A stretch of DNA of 39,519 nt. Origin: Hahella sp. HN01 (GTDB taxonomy: Bacteria; Pseudomonadota; Gammaproteobacteria; Pseudomonadales; Oleiphilaceae). The notes under the pieces were generated by a model, which saw nothing but the letters and a program-made list of their open reading frames with translations, was not told where the DNA came from and searched no databases. The position numbers and the translations under genes were made by a program. Below are positions 11,997 to 19,195 of the stretch, one piece after another (positions within the stretch are counted from its first letter, which is position 1; each line of letters begins with the position of its first letter). The stretch covers positions 1 through 39,519 of the forward strand of contig NZ_JAHMIN010000048.1 in the NCBI RefSeq assembly GCF_018986435.1, given 5' to 3'.

Positions 11997-12479
11997 CTAC
12001 TGAATACGCTCAATGCCTTCCTGCGGCAATGTCGCAAGCAGAGCGGATATCGATCCAATGCCCGGAATAACGCAATTCGGCGCAATTTCAGCCAAGGGAA
12101 ATATAACAAAGTTACGCTCGTGCATGGCGTAATGAGGTACGGTCAGTACTTCGCTGTTCAGAGTTTCATCGCCAAATAACAGCAAATCCAGATCCAGGGT
12201 TCTGGGAGTCCAGCGTTCGCCCTGGCGTACGCGGCCTTGATTGTTCTCAATAGTTTGCAGCTCTCGCAACAGGTCGAGAGGTTCCAGGCTGGTTTCCAGT
12301 TGCGCGACCGCGTTGACATACCAGGGCTGGTCAGGCGCGCCGAGGGGCGCGCTGCGATACAGGCTGGACGCCTGCAGCAACTGGACGCTGGATATATCTT
12401 CCAGCGCGCTTAGCGCTTGGCGCAGCTGTTGCTCAGGCTGGCTTAGGTTACTACCCAAGCCGACATAGCAGAGTGTCAT
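11997..12479 (-). CDS. folK: 6-hydroxymethyl-7,8-dihydropterin pyrophosphokinase FolK
   Basis: FolK transfers pyrophosphate from ATP to hydroxymethyl-dihydropterin in folate synthesis. At 160 residues it is the normal length and keeps the canonical residues: YVGLGSNL at the start, GRVRQGERWTPRTLDLDLLLFG containing the Arg/Trp loop and Asp pair, and the HYAMHERNFV segment with His-Tyr and Arg. Its start overlaps the pcnB stop by 4 bp. This is the standard folK, in contrast to the divergent homologue at 8044-8544. Confidence 0.97.
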   Translation of the reverse strand: MTLCYVGLGSNLSQPEQQLRQALSALEDISSVQLLQASSLYRSAPLGAPDQPWYVNAVAQLETSLEPLDLLRELQTIENNQGRVRQGERWTPRTLDLDLLLFGDETLNSEVLTVPHYAMHERNFVIFPLAEIAPNCVIPGIGSISALLATLPQEGIERIQ

Positions 12480-13849
12480 TGCGATGGCGCACTGTTGTTG
12501 GTGCGGCGTGGGCGTCTGCGCGGACGTCTGCGTCCACCGGAGCCGTCCCGTTTAGGGCCTTGCTGCTGCAATTTATTACGCCCCTGGTCATCGGCTTCCT
12601 GGTAGCGCGTCCACCACTCGCCAAGTCCTTGCAGGTCTTCACCGCTTTGTTCACGCAAGACCAGGAAGTCGTAGGCGGCGCGGAAGCGGGGATGTTCCAC
12701 CAGGCTCTGCAGACGTTTGCTTTGTTTGCGGGGCAGTCGAAGCTGCAATTCCCAGATTTCACGCATGGGCTGACTGAAACGCTTCGGCAGCGCAGTGTGC
12801 TTGACCTGCTGCGCCAGCACTTTGTCGATAGCCTTGTGCATAGCCTGCATGGGAGGCAAGCCGTCGTCTTGGTAGCGCTGCTGCAGTCTTTGCATTGGCG
12901 ACCACAACATGGCCGCGTATAAAAACGCAGGAGTTACCGGCTTGTCCTGGGCGATTCGCTTATCCGTGTTGCGCAGCGCTTGCAGGATCAGTTTCTCCGC
13001 ATGGGGGTGCTCATTTTCCAGCAGGCGGTCAGTTTCTGGGAACAGGAATTTGAATAAGTCGAACTGGCGCAGAATTTCGAATGTACGTACGGCTTTACCG
13101 GATAAGAACAGCTTCAGAACTTCTTCAAACAAACGCGCAGAGGGTATGTTGAGAAGCAAGGGGCCTAGATCCAGGATGGGGCTGGCGGTGCGTTCTTCGA
13201 TTGAAAAATCCAGTTTTGCGGCGAATCGGGCTGCGCGCAGCATGCGCACGGGATCTTCCCGGTAACGGGTTTCAGGGTCGCCGATCAGGCGCAGAACCCG
13301 GTGTTCAATGTCTTCGATGCCGCCTGCGTAGTCATAAATGCTGAAATCTCTGACGCAGTAATAAAGCGCGTTAACGGTGAAGTCACGGCGTAGCGCGTCT
13401 TCTTCCTGGTTGCCGTAGACATTGTCGCGCAGTATCTGGCCTGAGTCGCTGGTGACCGCGTCGCCGTCGTCTTCGCCAGCATTTTGATGACCGGCGCGAA
13501 ATGTGGCGACTTCAATGATCTCACGACCGAAGCGCACATGAGCGAGGCGGAAACGACGTCCGATCAGGCGACAGTTGTTGAACTGCTCGCGCACTTGTTC
13601 TGGGGTTGCGCTGGTGGCGACGTCGAAGTCTTTGGGCTGTTCGCCCAGTAATAAATCGCGCACGCCGCCGCCGACTAGAAAGGCGTCATAGTTGGCGCCG
13701 TTCAGGCGGTAGAGAACTTTCAACGCCGCAGGGCTGATCTGCTTGCGTGAGACTGTATGGCTGTCGCGGGGGATGATTCGCAGTTTCAAAGGTTTTGCGC
13801 CGGCTTCTTTGCGTCCCGGTTTTATCAGGCCCATTAACTTTTTCAGCAT
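12476..13849 (-). CDS. pcnB: Poly(A) polymerase I PcnB
   Basis: PcnB adds 3' poly(A) tails that help degrade RNAs. The 457-residue protein has the nucleotidyltransferase signature LVGGGVRDLLLGEQPKDFDV with the catalytic Asp residues, an RNA-binding core (REDPVRMLRAARFAAKL), and a very basic C-terminal tail (RRRPRRRPRRTNNSAPSQ), common in this family. The upstream ribosome binding site is weak. It follows the predicted CrcZ-like RNA, as in Pseudomonas, and begins the pcnB-folK-panB-panC run. Confidence 0.97.
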   Translation of the reverse strand: MLKKLMGLIKPGRKEAGAKPLKLRIIPRDSHTVSRKQISPAALKVLYRLNGANYDAFLVGGGVRDLLLGEQPKDFDVATSATPEQVREQFNNCRLIGRRFRLAHVRFGREIIEVATFRAGHQNAGEDDGDAVTSDSGQILRDNVYGNQEEDALRRDFTVNALYYCVRDFSIYDYAGGIEDIEHRVLRLIGDPETRYREDPVRMLRAARFAAKLDFSIEERTASPILDLGPLLLNIPSARLFEEVLKLFLSGKAVRTFEILRQFDLFKFLFPETDRLLENEHPHAEKLILQALRNTDKRIAQDKPVTPAFLYAAMLWSPMQRLQQRYQDDGLPPMQAMHKAIDKVLAQQVKHTALPKRFSQPMREIWELQLRLPRKQSKRLQSLVEHPRFRAAYDFLVLREQSGEDLQGLGEWWTRYQEADDQGRNKLQQQGPKRDGSGGRRRPRRRPRRTNNSAPSQ

Positions 13850-14055
13850 GACGATCTTGTGTCTATCAATACCAATGATTTCGAGGGCCGGAGTGTACTC
13901 TTTTGTAACGGATATTGCGACAGCAAAAGCCGTGCCTCATACGTGGTGGAATGCGGCTGAAAGGTGCTCAGACCCAATATGCTTTAAGCATAGCTTTGAT
14001 GGGGCATTAGTCGACAAAAGACGGAAATTTAAGGAAAAAATGAGGAGAGGGGAGA
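13850..14055. other. pcnB leader region
   Basis: This 206-bp stretch lies between the sRNA terminator and pcnB. It should carry the pcnB promoter, but I found no well-spaced -35/-10 pair. An open frame on the plus strand (to 14063) has no ribosome binding site or recognisable protein and runs antisense into pcnB. Confidence 0.35.
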
Positions 14056-14437
14056 ATAACTAAGGGGAAAGCAATGTTGCTTTCCCCCACTGAGAAGAAG
14101 GTTAGACGATTTTTTGTTTTTATTTTTGTCTTGGTCCCAAACGATTGGTCGCTCCACAATTAGAGCCTAGAGGATTAGTTACAAACGGAACGCTTTGAAT
14201 ACTTCGAGTGATAATAGGGATTTGGATAGTGTTGTTTAAGTCTAGAATGTCCACTGTCGTGGTTCTTTTTAATACTAGACACCCTACCCATACCTTGAAA
14301 TACCACTAAAAAGCTCGGCATCCAAAACAATCAGTTCGCCACCCGTATTTTTATTTTTGTTCTGGGTTGTTCTTTTTGTTCACTCTGCTTTTTTATTTTT
14401 ATTTGTGCAGTTCGGTGCATTTTTATTTTTATTTTGC
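14056..14437 (-). ncRNA. CrcZ-like Hfq-sequestering small RNA (predicted)
   Basis: The roughly 380-nt RNA is predicted from a sigma-54 promoter (start near 14437) to a GC-rich hairpin. On the minus strand it carries five A-rich clusters fitting the AAnAAnAA motif: 14420-14435, 14389-14405, 14364-14381, 14345-14362 and 14107-14130. In Pseudomonas such motifs bind Hfq with Crc. GTGCA and TGCAC (14435-14439 and 14415-14419) would place the first cluster in a hairpin loop. It lies between cbrB and pcnB, same strand, exactly where Pseudomonas crcZ (about 400 nt) lies. In that genus CbrB activates CrcZ, which titrates Hfq/Crc and relieves catabolite repression. Sequence homology to CrcZ was not tested; the call rests on motifs, promoter and position. 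Confidence 0.78.
14064..14087 (-). terminator. Terminator hairpin of the CrcZ-like RNA
   Basis: GGGGAAAGCAA and TTGCTTTCCCC form a near-perfect 10-11 bp stem with a tiny loop. On the minus strand it is followed by TTAGTTATT, a weak U-rich run. It lies 20 nt after the last A-rich motif, fitting the 3' end of the sRNA. Confidence 0.6.
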
Positions 14438-14448
14438 ACTGTAAGAGA

Positions 14449-14463
14449 GCATGGGGCGTGCCA
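14449..14463 (-). promoter_or_regulatory. Sigma-54 (RpoN) promoter of the CrcZ-like RNA
   Basis: The minus strand reads C-TGGCACG-CCCCA-TGCT. The GG (-24) and GC (-12) are exactly 10 bp apart as RpoN requires, and it matches YTGGCACGrNNNTTGCW at all but two positions. The predicted start is near 14437, just before the first A-rich motif. A sigma-54 promoter needs an NtrC-type activator, and cbrB next door encodes one. Confidence 0.75.
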
Positions 14464-14530
14464 GAAAATTAAAAAAACATTATAAAACAGCAATGTAGCT
14501 GCGAGTGTTCAAAAGTCATACGTGTTTTTG

Positions 14531-14599
14531 CTTACCTGAGTGTTACCAATGCCCACTGAAAGGGCATCCTGGTGTTCCCCAAAGTAACGCTGGGTAACA
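14531..14599 (-). promoter_or_regulatory. Candidate CbrB enhancer sites (GTTAC/GTAAC cluster)
   Basis: Read on the plus strand, TTACC (14532), TGTTACC (14541-14547), GTAACG (14584-14589) and GGTAACA (14593-14599) are arranged as two mirrored pairs, about 95-165 bp upstream of the predicted sRNA start. That is normal spacing for enhancer sites of NtrC-family activators. Between them ATGCCC/GGGCAT (14549-14567) forms an inverted repeat. I recall TGTTAC-type half-sites for Pseudomonas CbrB but cannot confirm it here. A further GTAACA is at 14703. Confidence 0.5.
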
Positions 14600-14803
14600 A
14601 CTCAACCGCAGTTGGTGTCACAAAGAGGGGCGCGAGGCGCATTTAGACTGTTTTTTAATCAAAATTATGGCCCACATTAGTGAATATGCAAGTCAACTTA
14701 GCGTAACAATTTTAGGTTGTGAGCAATAAATGCGCGCGACCGACTAAATATCGATCAAAAAGAAACGATTTGGGGCGTGAGAAAGGAAAGTGTGGGGTAT
14801 TGC

Positions 14804-14822
14804 AGCCCGGATGAACCGGGCT
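14804..14822 (-). terminator. Hairpin just after cbrB
   Basis: AGCCCGG-ATGAA-CCGGGCT is a perfect 7-bp stem starting 15 nt past the cbrB stop. It lacks a good U-tract but probably ends the cbrAB transcript before the sRNA promoter region. Confidence 0.55.
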
Positions 14823-14836
14823 GGCTGGAAAAAGTG

Positions 14837-16225
14837 TTACTTAGCGCTTTTTTTGGTGCGCGGTATGCCCAAACGCTGTCGACGCTCCCATAAACTTTTG
14901 CGGCTGATGCCCAATTTGCGGGCCAACTCGGTTTCGCTCATGGTGTCCTGATTTTCCAGTACAAAGTGCTGGAAATAGTCCTCTAATGACAAATCCGTGC
15001 CTTTATCCGCGCCTTTGGAGTTGGCGGGGTTATCCATACTCAGCATACCTTCGGGGATATCCAGCTCTCCCTCCAGATCAATCGCCAGCAGGTCTTTGCC
15101 GATGTGGTCGCTGTCCGAGAGGATGACGGCGCGCTCGACGGCGTTCTCCATCTCTCGCACGTTGCCTGGCCACTGATAGCGACGAATAAGGGTGAGGGCG
15201 TCCTTATCGAATTTGAGGTTGGGCTTATCCATACGCTCGCCCATTTTAGCCAGCAGCATTTTAGCCAGACCGATGACATCATCCTCCCGGTCCCGCAATG
15301 GGGGGATGCGGAGCTGCATGACGTTCAGTCGGTAAAACAAGTCTTCCCGGAACTCGCCCACTTTGGTCATTGCCTTGAGGTTACGGTGCGTTGCGGCGAT
15401 GAGGCGCACGTCCACGCGTTTGGACTGGGTGGAGCCGACCCGACGAATCTCGCCCTCTTGGAGAACCCGTAACAAACGCGCCTGGGCTTCCAGTGGCAGT
15501 TCGCCTATTTCGTCGAGAAATAAGGTGCCGCCGTCAGCCGCCTCTATCAGGCCGCTACGCGCGCCCACAGCGCCCGTAAACGCGCCTTTCTCATGGCCGA
15601 ATAGCTCGGATTCAATCAGTGTTTCTGGAATCGCTGCGCAGTTGACGCAGATGAGAGCGCCCTCCCGACGTCGGCTCAACATGTGCAGGGCGCGTGCGGC
15701 CAGTTCTTTACCTGTGCCTGACTCGCCTTGAATCAGTACGGTGGTGTCGGTCGGGGAGACTTTACCGATCAAATCGAACAGCTTCAGCATTTCCGTGCAT
15801 TCGCCGAACATCAGATCATTGATGTCTGCGCGCGCAGAGGCGTTTTCCGCTTCGAGTTTGGGAGGCGAGGGCTTGGCGGGGCGCCGATCCAGGATGGATT
15901 TGATCGACGCCAGCATCTCGTCGTGATCGAAAGGCTTGGCGATATAGTCCACCGCGCCGAGTTTCATAGAATCCACGGCGGAGCGCAGGCTGGCGTAACT
16001 GGTCATGATCAGGACGGGAGTCTCGGTCGCCTGAATCAGATCGGTGCCGGGTCGACCGGGAAGACGCAGATCGGAAATGATCAAATCCGGTTTGCTTTGC
16101 TCCGCAACTTCCAGAGCGCGATCAACGGAGTCCGCTTCGGCGACGGCGTAACCGTTATGCTGTAAGAGTCGCGTCAGGGCGGAGCGGATAATGCTCTCGT
16201 CTTCTACAATCAAGATTAAAGCCAT
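14837..16225 (-). CDS. cbrB: Sigma-54-dependent response regulator CbrB
   Basis: CbrB is the NtrC-family activator of the CbrAB carbon/nitrogen control system. The 462-residue protein has a receiver domain (acidic pocket E8/D9, phosphoacceptor D52 in SDLRLPG, conserved Lys in DYIAKPFDH), an AAA+ domain (Walker A GESGTGKE near residue 170, the sigma-54 contact motif GAFTGA near 215) and a C-terminal Fis-type helix-turn-helix (SETELARKLGISRKSLWERR). It sits 3 bp after cbrA. The identity as CbrB rests on the N-terminal transporter domain of its kinase partner and the dksA-gluQ-cbrAB-pcnB gene order. The likely target is the sRNA downstream. Confidence 0.95.
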   Translation of the reverse strand: MALILIVEDESIIRSALTRLLQHNGYAVAEADSVDRALEVAEQSKPDLIISDLRLPGRPGTDLIQATETPVLIMTSYASLRSAVDSMKLGAVDYIAKPFDHDEMLASIKSILDRRPAKPSPPKLEAENASARADINDLMFGECTEMLKLFDLIGKVSPTDTTVLIQGESGTGKELAARALHMLSRRREGALICVNCAAIPETLIESELFGHEKGAFTGAVGARSGLIEAADGGTLFLDEIGELPLEAQARLLRVLQEGEIRRVGSTQSKRVDVRLIAATHRNLKAMTKVGEFREDLFYRLNVMQLRIPPLRDREDDVIGLAKMLLAKMGERMDKPNLKFDKDALTLIRRYQWPGNVREMENAVERAVILSDSDHIGKDLLAIDLEGELDIPEGMLSMDNPANSKGADKGTDLSLEDYFQHFVLENQDTMSETELARKLGISRKSLWERRQRLGIPRTKKSAK

Positions 16226-16228
16226 AGC

Positions 16229-19195
16229 TTAAGTTTCCGTTAACTCTGCAGAGATACTTTCTGAGTCGGACTGATAAGCCGGTAGTTCGATAATGACCCG
16301 GGTTCCTTTGCCGGATTCTTTATCCGCCGGACTTTCTATCCGAATGTGGCCGTAGTGCTCTTCTATAATGCTGTACACCAGAGACAGCCCCAAACCAGTA
16401 CCCTTATCGGGGCCTTTGGTGGTATAGAAGGGCTCGAACAGGTGATCTATCTGGTCGCCGCTGATGCCGCTGCCTTCGTCCTCCACTTCAACATGGATGG
16501 AATATTGTTGCAGCGACGCTCTCACCCAGATATTGGCTGAAGCCTCCGAAGCGTCGCGGGCGTTGCTGAGCAAGTTGACGAAAACCTGCACCAGACGTTG
16601 TCCGTCGCCCATTACCTTTACCGTTTCGTCCACTTCGTTGACGTAGAGCACCTGTGGCTCTTTAGTGGATAAGGAGAGTAAGTGTATCGCTTCGTCGACG
16701 CAACGTTTTAACTCCGTCGGCCCATGCTGGGCGGACTGGGTGTAATTGCCGGAGCGGGCGAAATTCATCAGGGTGTGTAAAATTCTGGAGACCCGCTGGG
16801 TCTGCACAAGAATATGTCCCGCCGTCTCCAGCACTTCTTCGTTGCTGGTCATGAGTTTGAGGTTTTGGGCAAGACAGGCGATGCCCGTTACCGGGTTGCC
16901 AATTTCGTGGGCGACCCCCGCTGCAAGACGCCCCACGGAAGCGAGGCGCTCACTATGAACCAGCTCGTCTTCCAGTAACTGGGTCTCCGTATAATCTTCC
17001 AAAAGCAGCACTTGTCCGGCGCCCGATGCGCCATCGCTTTCAATCGCGGCTTTGTGCAGATTGAACCAGTGTGGTGCGCCGTTAATGTCCAGGCGCTTCT
17101 TGGAGACATGGCGCTCTTCCGCATTAGCGAAGCTAAAGAGCAGCGTGGACCAGGGCTTGGCAATGGCGCTGATGTGTGAACCGATGACCTGCGGAGCGGG
17201 AATTCCCGTCAGCTGCTCCATCGCGTGATTCCACATCAACACTTCAAGATCAGCGCCTAAAGAACAGGTGGCGATAGGTAGATTTTGTAAGGTTTGCCGA
17301 TGGTAACGGCGCAGCGTATCCAATTCGCCGGCAAGTCCGCTGAGGCGGTTATGGTATTCCTCCAGCTTGCTCTCAACGAAGTAAATGTCCTGAGCGGGCG
17401 CAACGCTGGTGGCGGGCTTGAAGCTGAGATTCTGTTTGACGATGTCCTGCGCCAGAGCCGGACCTAATAGACCTGACAAATTGGCTTCGATCTGATCGCG
17501 CAGCCTGCGTAGCGCATAGGGGCGGTACTCGACCTCATGCAACTGCAACTGCGCGAGGGCGTGATTCACTTCTCTTTCGGCGGCTTGGCGGCCGAGAGAC
17601 TCTGTCAGGAAGTCCTTAAACTGCTCGGAGCTGGTGGCGACCAATTCGCGTCGTGATGGACGCATCAGTGTGTCGACGGAGCAGGCCTGGGCGGAGCGCG
17701 CTTCTGCCTGAGAGGCGTCGGTAAACAGGCTGACCATGACGAAAACGAAAATATTCAGGGTCAGGGACGCCATCACATAGTAGTGCCAATCGTCAGGATT
17801 GAAGCTGTAGCTGTCGCGCCATGGATTGACCGAGAACACGTCTACACCGAACAAGATGGGTAATGGCATGGTGACGAACCACAAGCTTACGCCGGCGCAT
17901 AAGCCACTGATGAATCCGTTGCGATTTCCCAGGGGCCAATAGATGACCGCCATCACCCCTGGCAGCAACTGCAGGCCAGCGGAAAAAGCCAGTATGCCCA
18001 GCTCGGAAAGGGAAAAGCGGTTGTCCAGGAATAGAGAGAACAGGTAGCCGGAGCCGAGGATAAACAAGATCAAGCCGCGTCTTACCCAGGTCAGCCAGGA
18101 ATAGATATTGCCGCGGGACAAAGGCTGATATACGGGGAGGATGACATGATTGAGCATCATCGAGGCCAGCGCCAGACAGGTCACGATCAGTAAGCCGCTG
18201 GCGGCGGTCAGTCCGCCAAGAAAGGCGACAATACTGATCCAGGGGGCGTTGAGCACCTGGCCCAGGCCGAGAATAAAAAATTCCGGTGTTGTGGGAACGG
18301 ACAGCTTGATGCCCGCCCACATGAAAATAGGGATGGGCAGACTCATCAGGAGCAGGTACACCGGTAGTCCCCAGCTCGCTTTGTAAAGTGCAGTGGGATT
18401 CAGGTTTTCCGTAAAGGTGACATGAAACATGTGCGGCATCACCAAGGCGGAAGCGAAGAATATCAGCAGCATCGCCCGCCAGGGCCCTTCCTCTAAGTGG
18501 CGCTCCATGGCGCTGATGCGTTGCGCGTTCTCTTGCAGCCAGCTGTTCACTTCGCCGAAGCCGCCGAACACCTGATAGGCGATCAATATGGCCAGCGCCA
18601 GTATGATCACCAGCTTGAGACCGCCTTCTAGCGCAATCGCCACGATCAGGCTGGGGTGTCTTTCCGCGCGAGTTTGTCCGCGGGCGCCGAAAAAGATGGC
18701 GAAGAAAATGATCATGGCGCAGAACAGCAGGCTGACTATCCGTGTGTCCTGAGACGGCGCTAGAACATGCAGGGAGTTGTCGAGCGCCTGAAACTGCAAC
18801 GCCAGCAGCGCGAGTGAAGCGAAGCTGATGAAGAGTGTGCTGATGGTGCCTGCCGCCTGACTTCTGTAGCGGAAGGTGAATAAATCCGCCACTGAAGAAA
18901 GTTGATAGGATTTGGTGACCCGCAGAACAGGAATCAGCAACACTGGCGCAAGAAGAAAAGCGCCGCAAACCCCCAGATAGAAAGCCAGAAAGCCGTAGCC
19001 GAATTCGTAAGCCAGGCCGACGGAGCCGTAAAACGCCCAGGCGCTGGCGTAGACGCCGAGAGATAAAACATAGGTGGCGGGGTGCCGGACCCAGCGTAAA
19101 GGTATCCAGCCGCGCTCGGTGATATAAGCCAGGCCAAACAATGCACTGAGGTACAGGGCTCCGTAGGCGAGCAGGCTCCAGGCGCTAAAATTCAT
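16229..19195 (-). CDS. cbrA: Transporter-fused sensor histidine kinase CbrA
   Basis: The 988-residue protein joins a sodium/solute-symporter (SSS) like membrane domain of about a dozen helices (residues 1-500) to a linker, a PAS domain (about 625-740), a HisKA domain with phosphoacceptor H763 in GVAHEIGNPV, and an HATPase domain (N box FVNLLSNARDA, G box GTGLGLSLVYSI near 930). This architecture defines Pseudomonas CbrA, which regulates use of histidine, amino acids and other carbon sources with CbrB. GGGGA lies 4 nt before ATG 19195. The start overlaps the end of cbrX by 11 bp. The sensed signal is not known from sequence. Confidence 0.95.
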   Translation of the reverse strand: MNFSAWSLLAYGALYLSALFGLAYITERGWIPLRWVRHPATYVLSLGVYASAWAFYGSVGLAYEFGYGFLAFYLGVCGAFLLAPVLLIPVLRVTKSYQLSSVADLFTFRYRSQAAGTISTLFISFASLALLALQFQALDNSLHVLAPSQDTRIVSLLFCAMIIFFAIFFGARGQTRAERHPSLIVAIALEGGLKLVIILALAILIAYQVFGGFGEVNSWLQENAQRISAMERHLEEGPWRAMLLIFFASALVMPHMFHVTFTENLNPTALYKASWGLPVYLLLMSLPIPIFMWAGIKLSVPTTPEFFILGLGQVLNAPWISIVAFLGGLTAASGLLIVTCLALASMMLNHVILPVYQPLSRGNIYSWLTWVRRGLILFILGSGYLFSLFLDNRFSLSELGILAFSAGLQLLPGVMAVIYWPLGNRNGFISGLCAGVSLWFVTMPLPILFGVDVFSVNPWRDSYSFNPDDWHYYVMASLTLNIFVFVMVSLFTDASQAEARSAQACSVDTLMRPSRRELVATSSEQFKDFLTESLGRQAAEREVNHALAQLQLHEVEYRPYALRRLRDQIEANLSGLLGPALAQDIVKQNLSFKPATSVAPAQDIYFVESKLEEYHNRLSGLAGELDTLRRYHRQTLQNLPIATCSLGADLEVLMWNHAMEQLTGIPAPQVIGSHISAIAKPWSTLLFSFANAEERHVSKKRLDINGAPHWFNLHKAAIESDGASGAGQVLLLEDYTETQLLEDELVHSERLASVGRLAAGVAHEIGNPVTGIACLAQNLKLMTSNEEVLETAGHILVQTQRVSRILHTLMNFARSGNYTQSAQHGPTELKRCVDEAIHLLSLSTKEPQVLYVNEVDETVKVMGDGQRLVQVFVNLLSNARDASEASANIWVRASLQQYSIHVEVEDEGSGISGDQIDHLFEPFYTTKGPDKGTGLGLSLVYSIIEEHYGHIRIESPADKESGKGTRVIIELPAYQSDSESISAELTET

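Follow-up and report, generated by a model that had tools for sequence, protein, structure and literature searches.

The 39,519-nucleotide stretch of Hahella sp. HN01 DNA analysed here (the window) leaves a gap, positions 13850–14836, between cbrB, a response-regulator gene, and pcnB, the gene for poly(A) polymerase, and the question raised by this locus is whether the gap encodes a counterpart of the Pseudomonas small RNA CrcZ, which in P. aeruginosa is 407 nucleotides (nt) long and carries six A-rich stretches (PMC4063720). According to a 2022 review, no genera but Pseudomonas and Azotobacter have been described as having the order cbrA–cbrB–crcZ, which, like CbrAB itself, is confined to the Pseudomonadaceae (PMC8871633). 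An earlier note on the letters of the window had placed an RNA of this type, about 380 nt long, on the minus strand of the gap and thus outside Pseudomonas. This proposal is now strongly supported by synteny, a sigma-54 promoter, CbrB subsites, the register of the A-rich motifs, a conserved core helix, a hairpin and the trans-acting partners: the gap very probably holds the gene of a regulatory RNA of the CrcZ type, a homologue of CrcZ in Pseudomonas, with a predicted length (Table 1) close to that foreseen.

A predicted CrcZ-type RNA in the gap

The predicted RNA gene and both flanking genes lie on the minus strand, the synteny expected of crcZ, within the order dksA–gluQ–cbrA–cbrB–gap–pcnB–folK–panB–panC. 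The gap holds no long protein gene, since no more than 61 codons run free of stops on its minus strand, and a small protein gene as its content was rejected on the same ground. A scan of the whole window against Rfam at gathering cut-offs returned a tRNA as the sole match; a weak match in the gap to the plant microRNA MIR1514 (E 0.16) is attributed to chance.

The covariance-model search that the earlier note had suggested was more informative: RF01675, the Rfam model of CrcZ, has a single match in the 7.13-Mb genome, exactly at this locus (14030–14402, minus strand; 40.2 bits, E 9.8e-9). The warning that a sequence search could miss the RNA needs correction, the covariance search having found it, with a score below the cut-off of Rfam. 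The companion expectation, that the body between the motifs need not be conserved, holds for part of the molecule: the RF01675 alignment covers non-A-rich blocks around AACUGAUU-UUUUGGA and UCAAAG-UUCCGUUUG, and a core helix is common to the window RNA and Pseudomonas CrcZ, which amounts to homology of sequence and structure beyond the motifs, while the rest aligns poorly.

The core helix was assessed in an alignment (A1) of 30 sequences from four families, comprising 12 from f1, the family of the window (the window itself included), three from f2, five from f34 and nine from f20, plus Serpens; it takes 12 of the 13 f1 and nine of the ten f20 sequences of the draw and excludes the near copies L107 and L085. 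Family f20 corresponds to the Pseudomonadaceae, the C-terminus of CbrB from P. fildesensis being 98–99% identical to three of its members. Standard pairs fill 453 of the 480 cells of the helix (94.4%), compared with 30–56% when one side is slid by 1–3 positions, and 14 cells have changed on both sides. RNAalifold, applied to the whole of A1, returned only 17 pairs, all of which belong to the core helix or the terminator, and simple patterns pick out the core in f1, f2, f20 and f34 alone.

Five clusters fitting AAnAAnAA had been claimed, and five long ones (14–17 nt) are indeed present on the minus strand; a sixth, minimal cluster had been left out of that count and is probably incidental. No AAnAAnAA occurs on the opposite, plus strand of this stretch. 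On the minus strand, 17 overlapping matches compare with 3.3 ± 2.2 (maximum 14) in 3000 dinucleotide shuffles, and the six clusters with 2.1 ± 1.1 (P 0.005). Motif 1 has A at its AA positions throughout the 30 rows of A1 (27 at one position), with every third position variable; the same register is found in motifs 2 and 4 and in the last motif, with A at the AA positions in at least 27 of the 30 rows. The rows of A1 other than the window are gapped at motif 3, which is present in five of the six other members of the genus. The AAN register fits the A-R-N pattern bound by the distal face of Hfq (PMC6422490; PMC4063720), and the several A-rich stretches of ARN/AAN type that characterize CrcZ are thus represented here by putative Hfq sites.

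The long motifs of the window RNA all stay unpaired in its minimum-energy fold, and short stems close the loops in which three of them lie. Of the 330 clusters of at least 11 nt compared, 118 occupy loops with a closing stem of 4 bp or more (16.7% with shuffled flanks). This display is uneven across families (20/37 in f1, 8/45 in f20, 0/19 in f44 and 0/11 in f23), and for this reason hairpin display was rejected as a general rule.

The strong hairpin expected after the last cluster was also recovered. Its fold is unusually stable (z −4.2, unequalled in 200 shuffles), as is, to a lesser degree, that of the whole RNA (z −2.9, equalled by one of 100 shuffles), although a terminator-like pattern as such is unremarkable in the gap (two found, 1.1 ± 1.2 expected).

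Predicted transcriptional control

The sigma-54 promoter claimed to precede the first cluster is found as TGGCACGCCCCATGCT (GG-N10-GC), with a score of 11, which is the best found and is shared by two sites on the minus strand of the window; its position places +1 at about 14437. A promoter of this class would thus stand just upstream of the RNA, as expected of CrcZ. The search for CbrB sites used the subsite consensus reported for P. putida, TGTTAC (F) and GTAACA (R) at a distance of 20–25 bp (PMC6296734), and the upstream F1, R1 and R2 subsites that a CrcZ promoter should have are predicted from the sequence, with a mismatch in R1. In ten of the 12 other f1 genomes R1 is an exact GTAACA at −109/−110. 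Exact subsites upstream of the promoter number 251 in 97 genomes (the seven loci named below included), against 11.1 expected from mononucleotide shuffles, and they cluster by position, F mostly from −140 to −115 and R peaking near −100 and −77; no exact subsite lies upstream of the promoter in three f36 genomes.

By analogy with the work on Pseudomonas, exhaustion of the preferred carbon source would cause CbrA to phosphorylate CbrB, which would bind the TGTTAC/GTAACA subsites and drive sigma-54 transcription from 14437. The RNA so expressed would bind Hfq/Crc, acting as a sponge for this repressor, and its targets would be de-repressed.

A rather unlikely variant of this scheme is a CrcZ homologue with its main form cut from a cbrB–crcZ read-through mRNA, so that its level would mirror cbrB expression. 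Read-through from PcbrB is named in the 2022 review (PMC8871633), and cbrB lies directly upstream of the RNA gene on the same strand; against this, CbrB subsites recur upstream of the promoter across genomes, and so does a sigma-54 site followed 11–16 nt on by the first motif, in 86 of the 109 promoter–motif units compared. Transcription from the sigma-54 promoter is the preferred reading.

A second sigma-54-like site, AGGCACGGCTTTTGCT, lies shortly before pcnB (13937–13922, minus strand). It occurs in three close relatives (L293, L296 and L299) and was not found in three more distant members of the genus (L289, L290 and L298); since only close relatives share it, this site is probably not conserved.

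Table 1. Coordinates of the predicted RNA gene, its parts and its neighbours in the window.
Feature	Position	Strand	Remarks
pcnB, poly(A) polymerase	12476..13849	-	
CrcZ-type small RNA gene, ~382 nt, start and end predicted	14056..14437	-	RF01675 match, alignment A1
Terminator-like hairpin, 11 pairs, tail TAGTTATTCT	14063..14088 (read 14088-14063)	-	
Last AAN motif, ahead of terminator-like hairpin	14111..14127	-	
Conserved core helix, 3' strand	14181..14199	-	
Minimal AAnAAnAA match, 8 nt	14263..14270	-	
Conserved core helix, 5' strand	14321..14339	-	
AAN motif 4, loop closed by 4-bp stem (predicted fold)	14348..14361	-	
AAN motif 3, single-stranded linker (predicted fold)	14367..14380	-	
AAN motif 2, loop closed by CUGC/GCAG (predicted fold)	14390..14403	-	
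AAN motif 1, at RNA 5' end	14420..14433	-	
Sigma-54 promoter TGGCACGCCCCATGCT (GG-N10-GC)	14448..14463 (read 14463-14448)	-	by sequence only
CbrB subsite R2 (GTAACA), predicted, exact	14541..14546	-	centre -80
CbrB subsite R1 (GGAACA), predicted, one mismatch	14573..14578	-	~21 bp from F1
CbrB subsite F1 (TGTTAC), predicted, exact	14594..14599	-	centre -133 from promoter
cbrB, sigma-54-dependent response regulator	14837..16225	-	63% to Pseudomonas fildesensis gene (locus L003)
cbrA, sensor kinase	16229..19195	-	53% over residues 25-982 to neighbour of Pseudomonas fildesensis cbrB (L003)

Hfq and Crc

RpoN and Hfq are both encoded in the genome, the latter (L213:1441–1692, minus strand) scoring 131 bits against Hfq of P. 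aeruginosa. Of the two proteins of the exonuclease III family, one is an ordinary exonuclease III (best match 1ako) and the other, which has an intact reading frame, finds P. aeruginosa Crc as its best PDB match (249.9 bits). The gene of this Crc candidate sits between rph and pyrE, the latter being a neighbour of crc in Pseudomonas as well. The catalytic Glu/Asp/Asn are replaced by Asp/Asn/Gln in the candidate, and Crc is described as being devoid of key catalytic residues (PMC6422490). NCBIfam calls the candidate exodeoxyribonuclease III and displayed no Crc model for it. The search for crc called for by the earlier note was thus successful, and the genome encodes the two partners of CrcZ, Hfq and a Crc that has lost its catalytic residues. 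Of the 33 families read, 24 yielded a Crc-like protein whose catalytic residues are changed, on the basis of seven aligned columns in 62 rows (61 distinct genes) that, for f13, f17, f21, f25 and f27, covered only part of the matches of each genome.

A role as a sponge of Hfq alone, with Crc uninvolved, is improbable in this genome, where an intact Crc frame, altered in its catalytic residues, lies between rph and pyrE. The idea draws its strength from some genomes of f44 and f28, which have promoter and motifs, yet in which the exonuclease-family matches read retain all catalytic residues. In f44 (L191, L209–L212) the promoter–motif unit is present in all five genomes, and the five exonuclease-family proteins read, from three of them, retain the catalytic residues. 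In f28 (L181, L202 and L203) promoter and motifs are present, with the first motif 30–40 nt from the promoter, a distance at which the unit rule given below undercounts and scores one genome in three; no Crc was found in the three genomes read, a negative confined to these three, since a further f28 genome, G028, has a strong unread match (E 1.2e-65). The RNAs of f44 and f28 are possible Hfq-only sponges, while for the window RNA a joint action on Hfq and Crc is preferred.

Distribution and variants

The predicted RNA is not an isolated case. RF01675 matches all seven genomes of the genus and 19 of the 25 of the family (own genome counted), and 13 of the 14 loci read from this search have the promoter–motif unit. 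In the order, 60 of 293 genomes match, 14 of them above the cut-off (11 in f20 and three in f2). In the class, five of 369 match, one above the cut-off and in f20, and the four outside the order cover only 35–94 nt; the class-wide search is uninformative on absence, since its stricter filters missed this genome itself.

A unit was defined as TGGCAC/T-N7-GC followed within 45 nt by AAnAAnAA, inside the 1200 nt before pcnB, and was sought in 115 genomes that are a mix of RF01675 matches, PcnB similarity, CbrB similarity (seven named loci) and hand picks spread over families, some chosen for a weak RF01675 match; one further genome was too short. Units were found upstream of pcnB in 97 of the 115 (23 families and the seven named loci), against a rate of 0.13% in dinucleotide-shuffled stretches. 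Broken down by origin, the unit is present in 49 of 50 genomes with an RF01675 match (the exception, G147, is represented by the locus of its other copy), in 25 of the 30 best PcnB matches and in 41 of 58 genomes of the order without an RF01675 match, from 16 families; nine of the 17 that also lack the unit belong to f43. The reading of the window RNA does not rest on the figure of 41 in 58.

The RF01675 model misses much of the range. It has no match in Litchfieldella, Halomonas, G. agarilyticus or a metagenome-assembled genome (MAG) of the Cellvibrionaceae, all of which have the promoter, with a first motif 11–15 nt and four to nine motif clusters behind it; f36 is nearest to Halomonas and Litchfieldella, and f16 to Gilvimarinus and the Cellvibrionaceae MAG. 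The succession cbrB, unit, pcnB is found in the family of the window, in Halomonas, Litchfieldella and two Gilvimarinus species, and in many further families, CbrB being called by query match at 47–62% identity without a tree, which leaves the call doubtful in f43 and f26 (47–54%). Outside f1, f2, f20 and f34 only the architecture is shared, and common descent of the RNAs rests there on position, promoter and subsites and not on the body of the RNA.

These data bear on two further explanations, both of which were considered and rejected on motif statistics and the recurrence of the unit. A role of the stretch as 5' leader of pcnB, through which poly(A) polymerase would be regulated, is very improbable: the stretch does lie upstream of pcnB on the same strand, and in four f8 genomes the unit precedes pcnB although the sequence read there shows no cbrB, but the stable hairpin closes the stretch more than 200 nt before pcnB, and other units show the same order of parts (A1). 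A chance A-rich spacer without function is barely credible; A-rich low-complexity sequence can inflate covariance scores, as the short matches outside the order may illustrate, but the AAN register with its free N, the shared core helix and the low shuffled rate of the unit speak for a functional CrcZ-type RNA.

Several families depart from the single-unit arrangement. Thirteen genomes have at least two units upstream of pcnB (L161, L166, L162, L163, L169, L174, L178, L153, L186, L179, L188, L208 and L118), in f38 (up to four), f47, f29, f6, f12 and f37. Within the five arrays compared the units are 47–60% identical, with one pair at 95%, and for this reason most of the duplications look old. 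In f43 the unit is absent from all nine genomes (L130, L132, L139, L141, L164, L167, L175, L205 and L206), in which a CbrB-like gene (50–54%) precedes pcnB; the best Crc match is weak in 11 of 11 genomes (E 2.9e-14 to 2.3e-8), and the three matches read are ordinary Xth. In this family the RNA unit and Crc are missing together. In f26 (L189 and L204) the unit has four motif clusters and the CbrB-like gene is 47–48% identical; a catalytically changed Crc occurs there as well (L248).

Weight of the evidence

Some observations weigh against a CrcZ homologue at this locus. The 40.2 bits of the RF01675 match fall short of the gathering cut-off of 95, and the window RNA, although a probable homologue, is therefore no RF01675 entry by the rule of Rfam's own curators. 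Most core pairs vary little, and since seven of the 16 never vary the support from covariation is modest; in the window itself, U108–U248 disrupts one core pair. The gap has no AAYAAYAA, its motifs being mostly AAAAAUAAAAAU-like, R1 departs from the consensus at one base, and the U run of the terminator tail is interrupted, a trait that the f20 rows of A1 also display. Residue 25 of Hfq is Phe, in place of the Tyr of P. aeruginosa, in which replacement of Tyr25 by Asp abolished CrcZ binding (PMC4063720). Finally, six of the 25 family genomes have no RF01675 match, and one of the 14 loci read (L304) has no unit.

The literature searched offers little on CrcZ in this wider group. No paper linking CrcZ with Marinobacter was found, and those on Halomonas do not tie the two together in the parts available (PMC9049629; PMC13086519); cbr transcripts have been counted in seawater and are tied to no genus in the accessible text (PMC5073097), and a paper on Acinetobacter Crc mentions CrcZ, in the portion at hand, only in its reference list (PMC8312277). 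No title or abstract among the matches listed concerned crcZ outside the Pseudomonadaceae, a search that left subscription papers largely uncovered and is no proof of absence. The window RNA would be a CrcZ homologue outside this family, and the range of CrcZ looks much wider than stated.

On balance, the data favour, with some reserve, a CbrAB–CrcZ–Hfq/Crc cascade that did not arise within the Pseudomonadaceae but is an ancient means of carbon control common to the entire order. It would persist in over 20 families, with two to four sponge genes lined up in tandem before pcnB in some, operate without Crc in others and be lost together with Crc in f43. The core helix, seen in four families, is unexplained by titration of Hfq and may have a second role. 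Since the order cbrB–unit–pcnB recurs in many families, the results obtained on the carbon hierarchy of Pseudomonas become testable predictions for a large bacterial group. The natural variants of this order, with tandem units or with no changed-residue Crc found, allow one to ask what Crc adds to Hfq, and alignment A1 provides a means to widen the CrcZ model of Rfam.

Comparison with known systems

The window RNA resembles Pseudomonas CrcZ (RF01675) in its place between cbrB and pcnB, its sigma-54 promoter and CbrB subsites, its (AAN)n motifs, core helix and terminator-like hairpin, and its partners. It differs in scoring so far below the Rfam cut-off, in motifs that are mostly AAAAAU and not AACAAC, in the distances of its CbrB subsites and in being the single RF01675 match of its genome. 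CrcY and CrcX, further copies known from P. putida, A. vinelandii and P. syringae (PMC8871633), have the same proposed role, and several f20 genomes indeed show a second RF01675 match; unlike the bearers of CrcY or CrcX, this genome has none. A wider parallel is offered by the CsrB/RsmZ sponges, in which many copies of a protein-binding GGA motif take up the translational repressor CsrA/RsmA. The window RNA would work in a like manner, with AAN motifs for Hfq where those sponges present GGA to CsrA, a likeness in working for which no homology is claimed.
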